Part shown: in pieces, positions 26,033-42,106 of the stretch
Layout of the letters: each line of letters begins with the position of its first letter
Position numbering within the stretch: position 1 is the first letter of the stretch
From: Patescibacteria group bacterium
Lineage (GTDB): Bacteria > Patescibacteriota > Microgenomatia > Daviesbacterales > UBA10151
Reading direction: 5' to 3'
Assembly (NCBI GenBank): GCA_023379125.1
Contig: JAMCSY010000001.1
Span: 1 to 42,106, forward strand
DNA: 42,106 nucleotides
Program-made: the position numbers and the translations under genes
Notes under the pieces: model-generated
Database searches by the model: none
Told to the model about the DNA's origin: nothing
The model's input: the letters and a program-made list of their open reading frames with translations, nothing else

Positions 26033-28462
26033 TTAAGCTACAGCAGCAGGATAATCTGAGAGATAACCTTTTCTAGGTTCTCTAGAAGGGGGTTTGTTAA
26101 TTAAGGCCACTTTTAAAACATCATTCATATTTTTTACAAATATAAAATCTAAATCTTTTTGAACATTTTCTGGAATATCTTCAAGATCTTTTTTATTATT
26201 CTCAGGGGCGATAATCGTCTTTACCCCAGCTCGATGTGCTGCCAAAACTTTCTCTTTCAACCCACCAATTTCCAAAACCCGACCACGTAAGGTCACCTCA
26301 CCAGTCATCGCGACATCCTTTTTAACTGGATTTTTAGTGAACGCAGAAACAATAGCTGTAGTCAAAGCAATTCCTGCTGAAGGGCCATCTTTTGGCACTG
26401 CTCCTTCCGGAACATGAACATGAATATCTACTTTTTGATAGAATCTTTCTAGTAATCCAAGTTCTCTCCAATGAGCTCTAACATAGGATAAAGCTGCTTG
26501 AGCTGATTCTTTCATCACATCACCAAGCTGACCTGTTAACGTTAACTGGCCCTTACCCGGCATCAGTGTGACCTCAATAAACATAATTTCACCACCCACC
26601 TCTGTCCAAGCCATCCCAGTTGCTGTCCCAACTGAATCTTCCACATCAGCCAACTGTGGTGTAAACTTAGCAGGACCTAGTAATTTGGCGATATCTTTGG
26701 CTTCAATTGTGAAGGTTTTTGATTTATCGCCGTTAGCAACTTTACGAACAATTTTTCTGACTACCGAGGAAACTTCACGCTCCAGACCCCTCACTCCTGC
26801 TTCTCGAGTATACTTTTGAATTATCTCCATTACCGCTTCATCAGTAAATTTAATTTTTTCTACCTTCAGTCCACAAGCTTCAATCTGTTTCTCAATCAGA
26901 AACTTTTTAGCAATCTGAAACTTTTCGTTCTCAGTGTACCCTGGGTAACGGATAATCTCCAAACGATCACGCAGAGCTGGTGGAATAGTATCTAAAATAT
27001 TAGCGGTAGTAATAAACATTGCGTTAGACAAATCATAGGGGACTTCCAAATAATGATCAGAAAATGCGTTATTTTGTTCAGGATCTAAAGCCTCAAGTAA
27101 CGCTGCCGAAGGATCTCCTCGATAATCCATTCCAATCTTATCGATCTCATCTAGCATAAAGACTGGGTTCACACTACCTGCTTGTTTAACCCCTTGTAAA
27201 ATTCTCCCTGGCATTGAGCCCACATATGTTCTGCGATGACCTCTAATTTCAGCTTCATCTCTAATCCCCCCCAAAGACACTTTCACAAATTTCCTATTTA
27301 GAGCTTTAGCAATTGATTTACCAATTGATGTTTTACCAGTACCTGGAGGACCAACAAAACAAAGAATTGGTCCTTTGACTTTACCTGATAATTTGTGAAC
27401 AGCGAGAAATTCAAGAATCCTTTCCTTAACTTTTTGCAGTCCATAATGATCCTGATCCAAAACACCTTCCGCCTTTTTCATATCTAAAACACCATTACTT
27501 TCTAGTTTCCAAGGCAAATCAGTTAACCATTCCAAATAATTTCTCTTATAAGAAGCTTCTGGATTGTACTGAGACATTTTGGCTAGTCCGGCTAGTTCTT
27601 TAATTGCTTTATCCCTAACATCTTTAGGCATACCTGAGCGTTTAATCTTTTGTTCAAATTCATGAATTTCTTGATTTTGACCGCCTTCACTCTCCCCTAG
27701 TTCTTCTTCAATTGAGCGCATTTGTTCACGCAGAATTGCTTCTCTGGTCATCCGAGAAACACGCTCCTGTGTTTTTGAAGAAATATTCTGGGAGATTTGT
27801 AGAATTTTGATTTCTTTGGCCAGTAATTCCGATAGTCTACTCAAGCGGTCAACCGAAGAGTTCATCTCCAGTAGCTGTTGTTTATCAATTGTCTTAAAAT
27901 CAATTGATTGGGCAATCGAATTAACCAATAAGTTTGGGTCATCATTATGCGCTACCATATTCCAACTCGCTGTCCAATTTGAGAACGCAGCTGGATCAAA
28001 CATCGGATTGCCACCAAGCTCGACAAAGCGTTTGAACTGTTCTCTAACCGTGCGCATTAAGGCTTCTATCTCTTCGGTCTTTTCATATAAGTCAGGAATT
28101 TCTTCTACCTCAGCTAAGATGTAAGGGTCCTCTTGCGTGTATTTGCGTAAATAAACTCTCACTAATCCTTCGGCCGAAACAGTATACTCACCTTCTGGAT
28201 TTTTGATCATCCTCTTGAGTAAGCAAACCGTACCAACCTGATATAAATCCTTTTGCGTCGGATCCTCAATCCGGCTATTTTTTTGAGTGACAAAAACTAC
28301 CAGGCGATTACTTTCCCAAGCAGCATCTAGCGCAGCTTTTGACTTGGACCGGCCGGAAACGATTGGTAGAGAAGTTCCCGGAAACATCACAGTATCACGT
28401 AAAGGTCCAACAGGTAAGCTATCCGGAAGTTTTACAGATTGTGCAGTTACATCGTTAATCAT
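26033..28462 (-). CDS. lon: ATP-dependent protease Lon
   Basis: 809 residues, normal for LonA. The N-terminal LAN domain begins at PVGPLRDTVMFPGTSLPI. A long helical linker follows, then the AAA+ module with Walker A GPPGTGKTS, Walker B VFMLDEIDK and sensor RDRLEIIRYPGYT. The C-terminal Ser-Lys protease domain has PKDGPSAGIAL with the catalytic Ser and GLKEKVLAAHRAG with the catalytic Lys. It degrades misfolded and regulatory proteins in the cytoplasm. A CIRCE-like operator upstream suggests HrcA-type heat-shock control. Confidence 0.97.
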   Translation of the reverse strand: MINDVTAQSVKLPDSLPVGPLRDTVMFPGTSLPIVSGRSKSKAALDAAWESNRLVVFVTQKNSRIEDPTQKDLYQVGTVCLLKRMIKNPEGEYTVSAEGLVRVYLRKYTQEDPYILAEVEEIPDLYEKTEEIEALMRTVREQFKRFVELGGNPMFDPAAFSNWTASWNMVAHNDDPNLLVNSIAQSIDFKTIDKQQLLEMNSSVDRLSRLSELLAKEIKILQISQNISSKTQERVSRMTREAILREQMRSIEEELGESEGGQNQEIHEFEQKIKRSGMPKDVRDKAIKELAGLAKMSQYNPEASYKRNYLEWLTDLPWKLESNGVLDMKKAEGVLDQDHYGLQKVKERILEFLAVHKLSGKVKGPILCFVGPPGTGKTSIGKSIAKALNRKFVKVSLGGIRDEAEIRGHRRTYVGSMPGRILQGVKQAGSVNPVFMLDEIDKIGMDYRGDPSAALLEALDPEQNNAFSDHYLEVPYDLSNAMFITTANILDTIPPALRDRLEIIRYPGYTENEKFQIAKKFLIEKQIEACGLKVEKIKFTDEAVMEIIQKYTREAGVRGLEREVSSVVRKIVRKVANGDKSKTFTIEAKDIAKLLGPAKFTPQLADVEDSVGTATGMAWTEVGGEIMFIEVTLMPGKGQLTLTGQLGDVMKESAQAALSYVRAHWRELGLLERFYQKVDIHVHVPEGAVPKDGPSAGIALTTAIVSAFTKNPVKKDVAMTGEVTLRGRVLEIGGLKEKVLAAHRAGVKTIIAPENNKKDLEDIPENVQKDLDFIFVKNMNDVLKVALINKPPSREPRKGYLSDYPAAVA

Positions 28463-28491
28463 TAATTTTTGTGCTTAGTTTATTTTAAAAA

Positions 28492-28518
28492 CTAGCAGAA
28501 TATTATCACGAGTGCTAA
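28492..28518 (-). promoter_or_regulatory. CIRCE-like (HrcA) operator upstream of lon
   Basis: In lon orientation: TTAGCACTC, 9-nt spacer, TTCTGCTAG. The first half is a perfect match to the CIRCE half-site and the second matches 5 of 9 positions, with the exact 9-nt spacing. A possible -10, GATAAT (28502-28507), falls in the spacer. The site ends 29 bp before the lon ATG. Confidence 0.6.
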
Positions 28519-28623
28519 TAAATTGCAAGCCCGTATTTTTAAAGATGACGGTCATTATAACAACGAATTACCATTTTTTGAAGTATTAAAAAGGTAAGTT
28601 TCTGCTGAAAATTAGCTTAGTGG

Positions 28624-28629
28624 TATAAT
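28624..28629 (+). promoter_or_regulatory. -10 box of the 186-aa two-TM gene
   Basis: A perfect TATAAT lies 8 nt before the ATG at 28638, so the transcript is leaderless or nearly so. No clear -35. Confidence 0.5.
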
Positions 28630-28637
28630 TTTGGGCT

Positions 28638-29198
28638 ATGAGTAGCTATGAACAGGAGCCACCTCTAAATCCTAAAGCGCGTCAGGAGATCGATCAGATA
28701 ATCGCCAGTACCGAGCAGGGGTTTATTCGAGGCAGGCATAGATTTATTAACAACTATCTACAACAAGCTAGTTTAGCCTGCTGTGGCATAGCTGGTAGCC
28801 TACTAATCTCTGGATGCGTCGCTTTTCATCTGGATGATCAGTTTAGCACTGGAAAAATAGCTTCCATTCGCACCTCCGTTACGATTGCAGAAATTTGTCA
28901 TGATCAAAACCCACCAGCTTTTTGCCATTTCAGTTGGAGTTCAGAGTATACAATGTCTCTACCATCAAGCACAATGTTGGATACTAGCCCCTTAGGGGAG
29001 AGGCTAATTTTAGAAAAAGCCCTTCGTGATTCTTATCAGCAACAGGCTTTACAAGAAATGGATCAGCAAGATCGAGGAACTATTAAAGGTTTTATTAAAA
29101 ACCAAGGTCTTTGGGCAGGTTTGTTTACTCTAACAGCTGGTTTATCTTTAGCCCAACTCTATGAAAATAGCAAATTGAAAGCCCAAATCAAAGGTTAG
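28638..29198 (+). CDS. 186-aa two-TM protein with C-x8-C ectodomain (family unknown)
   Basis: Residues 1-43 are cytoplasmic, ending in a basic RGRHRF. TM1 spans ~44-64 and contains three Cys (48, 49, 60). The outside domain (~65-156) has Cys 87 and Cys 96 as CHDQNPPAFC. TM2 is ~157-175 and the tail is Lys-rich. No family is recognised. The next gene (29328-30131) has the same order with matching spacings, so the pair looks like diverged paralogs. C87-C96 may form a disulfide outside the membrane. Confidence 0.7.
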   Translation: MSSYEQEPPLNPKARQEIDQIIASTEQGFIRGRHRFINNYLQQASLACCGIAGSLLISGCVAFHLDDQFSTGKIASIRTSVTIAEICHDQNPPAFCHFSWSSEYTMSLPSSTMLDTSPLGERLILEKALRDSYQQQALQEMDQQDRGTIKGFIKNQGLWAGLFTLTAGLSLAQLYENSKLKAQIKG

Positions 29199-29288
29199 TT
29201 GGTAATATTTTTAATAACTCAGAGATGCTCTTACAGAAGATTTTAAGATAAATATAACAGCTATTTCTTCTCTATAAGAGTACTAATC

Positions 29289-29317
29289 TTGCACAATATC
29301 CCATAACTAAATATAAT
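29289..29317 (+). promoter_or_regulatory. Promoter of the 267-aa two-TM gene
   Basis: TTGCAC (29289-29294), 17-bp spacer, TATAAT (29312-29317); the ATG at 29328 is 10 nt downstream, giving about a 3-nt leader. Confidence 0.65.
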
Positions 29318-29327
29318 ACCCCTTGTT

Positions 29328-30131
29328 ATGGATGAGAGGTTATCTAAGTCGGAGCCACAAGATTCTTCAAATAACAGTGTTGCTGATTTTTTGACAGAGC
29401 TAGTTGCCGCTGATCCGAATCTGGCAGGACAATATGAGGCAGTTGCTAACTTAATTACTCAATTGGACCCTGAAGTTAAACCTCAAACCAACCCAGGCAA
29501 GGACCTAGGAAAGTCCTTGGCAAAATTAGTGGAAATTCGCGCGCAAGTTACTGCCCTTAAAGACGATAAAAACTCACTTCCGCTCCTTCAAGCAATCGAT
29601 ACACAAATAGCTTTTGCCCAAGCTAGGGAATCAACCGCCCATCAAAATTCAGCCAATCTAATAAACAGTAAACCTACTGCACAATACAGCAGAAGGAGAT
29701 TTTTAGAGCAATTGGCTGGTGCGGCAGCTATTGCTGGAGGAATAGGGATATTTGTTGGTGGACCAGTTGCTAGCACTATTTTATGGAATCAGGATCAGAC
29801 AGCGGCCAACAAACTAGCATCAGACCAAGCTCAATCAATCATAAACAGATCGTGTGAAACTAATCCTAATCAAGACTTTTGTCCACAACAGGTCACACCT
29901 ATCAACGAGATAATTAGTGAATCACAGTTAGATACCAACCTTAAGGTTGCAGAAGCACAAAAATTAAAGAGATCGGAGATTGCGCAAAAATTGTTACCAG
30001 ATTATAGAGAACAAGTATTTAACAGGGACTATGGTGCTACAACTCCATTCAGAACTGCTGTAAGAAACTGGGGTTGGACACCACCTCTGATAGCAGGTGG
30101 CATTCTTTTCTTGGGTATTATGTTTTCATAG
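29328..30131 (+). CDS. 267-aa two-TM protein with C-x8-C ectodomain and internal RR motif (family unknown)
   Basis: Residues 1-119 are a helical, acidic cytoplasmic domain. YSRRRFLEQLAG at 120-131 matches the twin-arginine S-R-R-x-F-L pattern directly before TM1 (~130-150, Gly/Ala-rich). The outside domain (~151-249) has only two Cys, 176 and 185, as CETNPNQDFC. TM2 (~250-266) ends the protein. The TM1-to-Cys and Cys-to-TM2 distances match those of the upstream 186-aa protein within a few residues. The function is unknown; the extra N-domain could be a cytoplasmic interaction module. Confidence 0.7.
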   Translation: MDERLSKSEPQDSSNNSVADFLTELVAADPNLAGQYEAVANLITQLDPEVKPQTNPGKDLGKSLAKLVEIRAQVTALKDDKNSLPLLQAIDTQIAFAQARESTAHQNSANLINSKPTAQYSRRRFLEQLAGAAAIAGGIGIFVGGPVASTILWNQDQTAANKLASDQAQSIINRSCETNPNQDFCPQQVTPINEIISESQLDTNLKVAEAQKLKRSEIAQKLLPDYREQVFNRDYGATTPFRTAVRNWGWTPPLIAGGILFLGIMFS

Positions 30132-30171
30132 CTTCTAGGTTTTCTCCGAAGAATAGGAACATAAAGGATAA

Positions 30172-30687
30172 TCAGTAATCAATCCCCTTTTTAGCTAAAA
30201 TTCCTTTTTCAAAAGGATGTTTTAGAGGCACCATCTCTGTCACTAGATCAGCTAACTCAACTAGTTTCTGAGGAGCATGATGGCCTGTTAATACCAAATC
30301 TACTTTTTCAGGCTTCTCTTTAATTAACTTAACCACCAAGGACAAGGGTAATAGTTTTGAGGAGACTGCTCCAACAACCTCATCAGCAATCACAACATCC
30401 CATTTTTCAGATTTTAACTCAGCAGCCAGAAGCTCATAAGTTTCTTTAGCTGCTGTTTTATGTTCTGAGAGTGGCAGTTTATCACCTAGGATTTTGACAA
30501 ATCCTTTACCTCCTTGGACTAACTTAATATCAGGACCTAGTTTTTTCACAGCCTCAACTTCCCCAGAAAACCAGTGTTTACCAAACTGGACAATTAAAAT
30601 TTTCTTTTGATAGCCACTGGCTCGTAAAGCAAGTCCCAATGCCGCAGTAGTTTTTCCTTTGCCTTCACCAGTATAGAGGATGATCAT
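30172..30687 (-). CDS. cobO: Cob(I)alamin adenosyltransferase, CobA/BtuR type
   Basis: 171 residues. The P-loop GEGKGKTTAALGLALRA at the N-terminus is the CobA/BtuR/CobO hallmark; DVVIADEVVGAV gives the Walker B-like Asp/Glu pair, followed by LVLTGHHAP near the C-terminus. It adenosylates reduced corrinoids to coenzyme B12. It lies just downstream of the B12-dependent ribonucleotide reductase gene, the only other obvious cobalamin gene in the window, so its role is very likely to feed NrdJ. No corrinoid synthesis genes are present here. Confidence 0.93.
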   Translation of the reverse strand: MIILYTGEGKGKTTAALGLALRASGYQKKILIVQFGKHWFSGEVEAVKKLGPDIKLVQGGKGFVKILGDKLPLSEHKTAAKETYELLAAELKSEKWDVVIADEVVGAVSSKLLPLSLVVKLIKEKPEKVDLVLTGHHAPQKLVELADLVTEMVPLKHPFEKGILAKKGIDY

Positions 30688-42105: not shown

Positions 42106-42106
42106 A

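Follow-up and report, generated by a model that had tools for sequence, protein, structure and literature searches.

Between lon and a cobO-like corrinoid adenosyltransferase gene, the window, which at 42,106 nucleotides comprises the whole of contig C1, contains two small genes that are referred to here as P1 and P2 (Table 1). Both had been predicted from the DNA letters, together with a layout shared by their products, and both parts of that prediction agree with our analysis. For each ORF, the annotated frame was the only one of the six with a positive score based on the codon statistics of the complete genome (971,965 bases). Among ORFs of at least 150 residues, the codon score of P1 ranks at the 10th percentile and that of P2 at the 35th. 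Both genes are likely coding, though the score of P1 is low for a gene.

The two proteins have the same order of elements: an R-x-R-F segment (RGRHRF at residues 31-36 of P1), a first transmembrane segment (TM1), a C-x8-C motif that ends in FC, and a second transmembrane segment (TM2). The distances between these elements agree within 5 residues, since TM1 and the Cys pair are separated by 23 residues in P1 and 28 in P2, and the Cys pair and TM2 by 60 and 63 residues, respectively. The layout is unmatched in any other small protein of the genome. Single-sequence AlphaFold models reached a mean pLDDT of 41.5 (P1) and 48.9 (P2) and were unusable for fold comparison; in the P2 model, the N-terminal 120 residues are predicted to be helical, with a pLDDT near 60 at best.

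Table 1 Features at the cobO-lon junction (positions in the window)
Feature	Position	Strand	Basis or remark
lon, flanking gene	26033..28462	-	gene search, relatives
Genome-specific island, 1.7 kb, between cobO-like gene and lon	28463..30171	.	junction comparison
CIRCE-like operator, TTAGCACTC-N9-TTCTGCTAG, over lon promoter	28492..28518	-	kept upstream of lon in relatives
P1 extended -10, TGG-TATAAT, ends 8 nt before ATG	28621..28629	+	sequence pattern; genome-wide position statistics
P1, two-TM orphan protein, 186 aa	28638..29198	+	ORF; only in-frame coding score positive of six
P1 TM1, residues 45-63	28770..28826	+	hydropathy 1.93
P1 Cys loop C87-x8-C96, CHDQNPPAFC	28896..28925	+	sequence
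P1 TM2, residues 157-175, weak	29106..29162	+	Kyte-Doolittle hydropathy 1.15, marginal
P2 promoter TTGCAC-17-TATAAT, ends 10 nt before ATG	29289..29317	+	sequence pattern
P2, two-TM orphan protein, 267 aa	29328..30131	+	ORF; N-terminal region of ~120 aa predicted helical
P2 SRRRFL motif, residues 121-126, before TM1, Tat-like, probably unused as Tat signal	29688..29705	+	TIGR01409
P2 TM1, residues 129-147	29712..29768	+	hydropathy 1.76
P2 Cys loop C176-x8-C185, CETNPNQDFC	29853..29882	+	sole two Cys of P2
P2 TM2, residues 249-267, extreme C-terminus	30072..30128	+	hydropathy 1.42
cobO-like corrinoid adenosyltransferase, flanking gene	30172..30687	-	PF02572 E 5.1e-54

Promoters of P1 and P2

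The -10 hexamers of P1 and P2 are located 8-10 nt before the ATG, so that the predicted transcripts begin at the ATG or a few bases ahead of it. The proposal that each gene has its own strong near-leaderless promoter is borne out by the sequence pattern, yet promoters of this kind are ordinary in this genome. Among the 431 genes with a free upstream region in the whole genome, TA[TA]AAT occurs 6-12 nt before the start in 66 matches, compared with 0-4 matches at other single positions before the starts of the same genes, and the genome-wide position statistics revealed no Shine-Dalgarno-like peak before start codons. Judged by these patterns, many genes of this genome appear to be transcribed without a leader or nearly so.

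An island at an otherwise compact junction

In nearly all relatives, lon and the cobO-like gene are present, adjacent and on the same strand. The gap between them is 23-138 bp in the 32 relatives measured versus 1712 nt in the window (cobO stop codon included), which identifies P1 and P2 as the content of a genome-specific island of 1.7 kb. The occurrence of this island at the otherwise compact cobO-lon junction is new here. Relative to the CIRCE-like element, both genes lie toward cobO, and they are encoded on the strand opposite to that of the two flanking genes. The short form of the gap is found in the relatives closest by lon identity, a measure that is not a tree (G010, G026, G025, G029, G007 and G022), and a gain of the island in this lineage is therefore the simplest explanation.

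The gap measures 0.5-3.9 kb in four relatives (G020, G011, G018 and G017), with ORFs unlike P1 and P2. The gap of G011 (L066:2956-6705) contains an ORF of 1249 aa with no assigned function and that of G020 (L065:3069-4252) three other small ORFs. One of these encodes a two-TM protein of 117 aa (L065:3899-4252, minus strand) that resembles P1 and P2 in its succession of TM, Cys pair and TM and in its location in the same gap, but it differs from them in its C-x12-C spacing and in its orientation. It was rejected as a relative of P1 and P2 since the similarity was no better than that of shuffled sequences.

A gain confined to this genome, at a site where four relatives hold other cargo, would also be expected if a mobile element or provirus had brought the island as its cargo, with P1 and P2 serving, for instance, in exclusion or immunity. 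The GC content of the P1 and P2 genes, 41.7-41.8% compared with a gene mean of 38.3% (sd 2.9), and a match to PHROG 2231 (E 0.056, not significant) point in the same direction. The GC excess, however, amounts to 1.2 sd and does not mark the genes as foreign. Moreover, there was no viral or phage relative of either protein and no plasmid relative of P2, the sole query in that search, PADLOC yielded no match, and the island contains neither an integrase ORF nor a convincing DNA repeat. An origin as mobile cargo is unlikely. A blastn search for the source of the island DNA within the same genome gave no significant match elsewhere. An 18-nt inverted repeat (17/18) connects the start region of lon (28459-28476) with the P2 gene (29953-29970); with a blastn E of 4.8 it is probably due to chance.

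In the short cobO-lon gap of the 32 relatives measured, the lon promoter is overlapped by a CIRCE-like element of the form TTAGCACTC-N9-nnCTGCTAA. Further CIRCE-like copies precede hrcA-grpE-dnaK and an Hsp20-like ORF (C8:12103; C4:163273-163299), the gene names being assigned by reading the sequence. The retention of the copy before lon across relatives suggests that lon belongs to the HrcA regulon of the group, which it probably shares with hrcA-grpE-dnaK. The island also contains, upstream of the promoter with the CIRCE-like element, another promoter-like site for lon (28554-28582, minus strand; TTCAAA-17-TATAAT with TG); the scan from which this site emerged found fewer sites than were present in shuffled sequences. 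The conserved succession of cobO, CIRCE-like operator and lon is a useful by-product of the analysis.

Search for relatives

Homologues of P1 and P2 were found neither in 45 genomes of the family (a search of the order gave the same 45) nor in 374 genomes of the class nor, with a two-row profile only, in a phylum sample of 380 genomes. GTDB contigs, viral contigs and phage records likewise contained no relative of either protein; the contig scans rely on short exact peptide matches and detect close relatives only. Pfam, NCBIfam, PHROGs, PADLOC and the PDB sequences gave no match above the cut-off over the body of P1 or P2. The lone profile above its cut-off was TIGR01409, a Tat signal model of 27 residues, on P2 (16.8 bits versus a cut-off of 16.7). 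PDB chain 4h8s matched P1 with a non-significant E of 0.24.

Three weak matches were rejected as homologues. The match in G003 overlaps a secD-like ORF and is interrupted by stops, and that in G584 concerns the C-terminal TM of a different kind of protein. The match in G126 is a Cys loop within an extracytoplasmic protein of the PsbP_2 type (L004:400-2040, minus strand), whose C-x8-C stretch CTGNPNAGVC aligns with the loop of P2. BLASTP gave an E of 2e-4 for this chosen pair. In the search of the class the match was the best of 374 genomes, with an E of 0.003, and at 0.003 per genome one such match is expected by chance among 374. In contrast to P2, the G126 protein consists of 546 aa with PsbP-like domains and one N-terminal TM, and there is no match beyond the loop region. 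If anything, it suggests that C-x8-C loops are easily come by in secreted domains.

By these searches, in a set of genomes without others of the genus, P1 and P2 are orphans of the species or genus. The original prediction was right that they belong to no known family, as far as Pfam and NCBIfam are concerned. It also viewed them as a candidate new family and proposed a search for adjacent homologues among Patescibacteria; none emerged for either protein, whether from the family, the class, the phylum sample, the GTDB and viral contigs or the phages. The pair consists of real orphan genes that are ordinary as lineage-specific orphans, and it does not serve as evidence for a new family. Orphan genes at the species level abound in Patescibacteria, a placement that agrees with the genome size of about 1 Mb; for this group the AGNOSTOS catalogue contains 45,788 species-level lineage-specific clusters of unknown function (PMC9132574). 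P1 and P2 resemble these clusters as genes of unknown function limited to about one species; compared by description, they differ in lying side by side, with layouts that match, at one defined site of insertion. Literature combining Patescibacteria, orphan genes and membrane proteins was not found.

Relationship between P1 and P2

Among 942 ORFs of the genome, a simple longest-first set without curated gene calls, a filter for TM, C-x8-C and TM let through only P1, P2 and a 346-aa protein with four TMs. The filter was chosen after the pair had been seen and thus describes rarity without providing a p-value. In a phmmer search of the ORFs of the same genome, P2 was the best non-self match of P1, with an E of 0.38; BLASTP of P1 versus P2 gave an E of 0.17. 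The local alignment is collinear from the RxRF segment to TM2 and pairs residues 33-168 of P1 with residues 122-257 of P2. Shuffles that preserve the segments reached the P1-P2 score 19 and 35 times per 1500 with BLOSUM62 and 3 and 6 times per 1500 with BLOSUM45; in a repeat, the numbers were 54 and 13 of 5000, respectively. When the cysteines were masked, 353 of 3000 and 227 of 3000 shuffles reached the score. The corresponding p-values are ~0.003-0.02 unmasked and ~0.08-0.12, not significant, with masked Cys. In addition, several unrelated proteins score as high as P2 in BLOSUM62 local alignments with P1. Most of the sequence signal between P1 and P2 resides in the two cysteines, and because significance is lost when these are masked, the homology is suggestive only: the two proteins may be paralogues.

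The dominance of the two cysteines is what would be expected of unrelated orphan membrane proteins that resemble each other by chance in a simple outline and do not act jointly. The separate promoters of the two genes fit this explanation, as does the recurrence of a TM with a nearby Cys pair in other proteins of the genome, among them a 71-aa ORF and two HEAT-repeat proteins with C-x10-C. Against it stand the collinear alignment and the equality of the C-x8-C spacing, the FC end and the flanking distances in two adjacent genes, a combination that is rare in the genome and makes a match of the layout by chance unlikely. An independent origin of P1 and P2 nevertheless has a substantial, if less than even, probability. 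The two HEAT-repeat proteins (C4:71590-71982 and C27:45241-45651, both minus strand) are small and similar to each other, and in each a TM comes first, followed by the C-x10-C and then a HEAT repeat.

Topology and export

Positive charges precede TM1 in P1 and P2. This favours an N-terminus inside the cell and, with two TMs, a C-terminus that is inside as well. We infer that both proteins are hairpins with 93-101 residues outside. With a DsbA-like thioredoxin (C4:34553-35380, Thioredoxin_4 E 6e-13) encoded in the genome, oxidation of the Cys pair is possible; VKOR was not found there. P1 and P2 had been suggested as a membrane pair that may be bridged by disulfides or a shared receptor; since each protein has its own C-x8-C, a predicted intramolecular disulfide is simpler. 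The C-x8-C probably closes an extracytoplasmic loop in this way.

The two-TM topology would be wrong if P2 were exported by Tat or P1 were a lipoprotein, or both. P2 resembles a Tat substrate in that SRRRFL precedes a hydrophobic stretch, which brings TIGR01409 barely above its cut-off, and TM1 of P1 includes a lipobox-like LISGC (Cys60). However, the distance of these motifs from the N-terminus, 59-120 residues, is large for a signal peptide, and the motif of P2, at 120 residues, comes without evidence of cleavage. In addition, TatC had no match in the genome, which is 97% complete, whereas the same search was positive in 11 of 14 control genomes. The Tat-like motif of P2 is probably a decoy. 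P2 was accordingly rejected as a Tat substrate, and either form of export is very improbable.

Proposed role of the pair

In the explanation that we prefer, with a probability of roughly 0.4, P1 and P2 are real, taxonomically restricted genes on a gained island, perhaps a diverged tandem pair of envelope hairpins that act together. The genes, their layout and the island are established by the analysis, whereas topology, disulfide, common origin, joint action and a role in the envelope are inferred. Gain of the 1.7-kb island between the cobO-like gene and lon would have introduced both genes. Each product would be inserted into the membrane without Tat, presumably via Sec/YidC, as a hairpin in which the basic segment, TM1, the outside portion and TM2 follow one another and both ends remain inside. 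Outside the membrane, the C-x8-C would form an intramolecular disulfide that closes a loop of ten residues, with the extracytoplasmic DsbA-like protein as the putative oxidant. The helical N-terminal region of P2 would face the cytoplasm and contact something inside. As possible diverged copies, P1 and P2 would act jointly in the cell envelope.

A more far-reaching version posits a two-protein membrane complex that arose recently by duplication of an orphan gene in one lineage, with P2 gaining a cytoplasmic domain that links the extracytoplasmic disulfide loop to the interior; this is a long shot. As the evidence stands, P1 and P2 are just another orphan gene pair. Should they be diverged copies that work as a pair, they would clearly exemplify a membrane complex that is young, restricted to one lineage and placed at a defined site of insertion.
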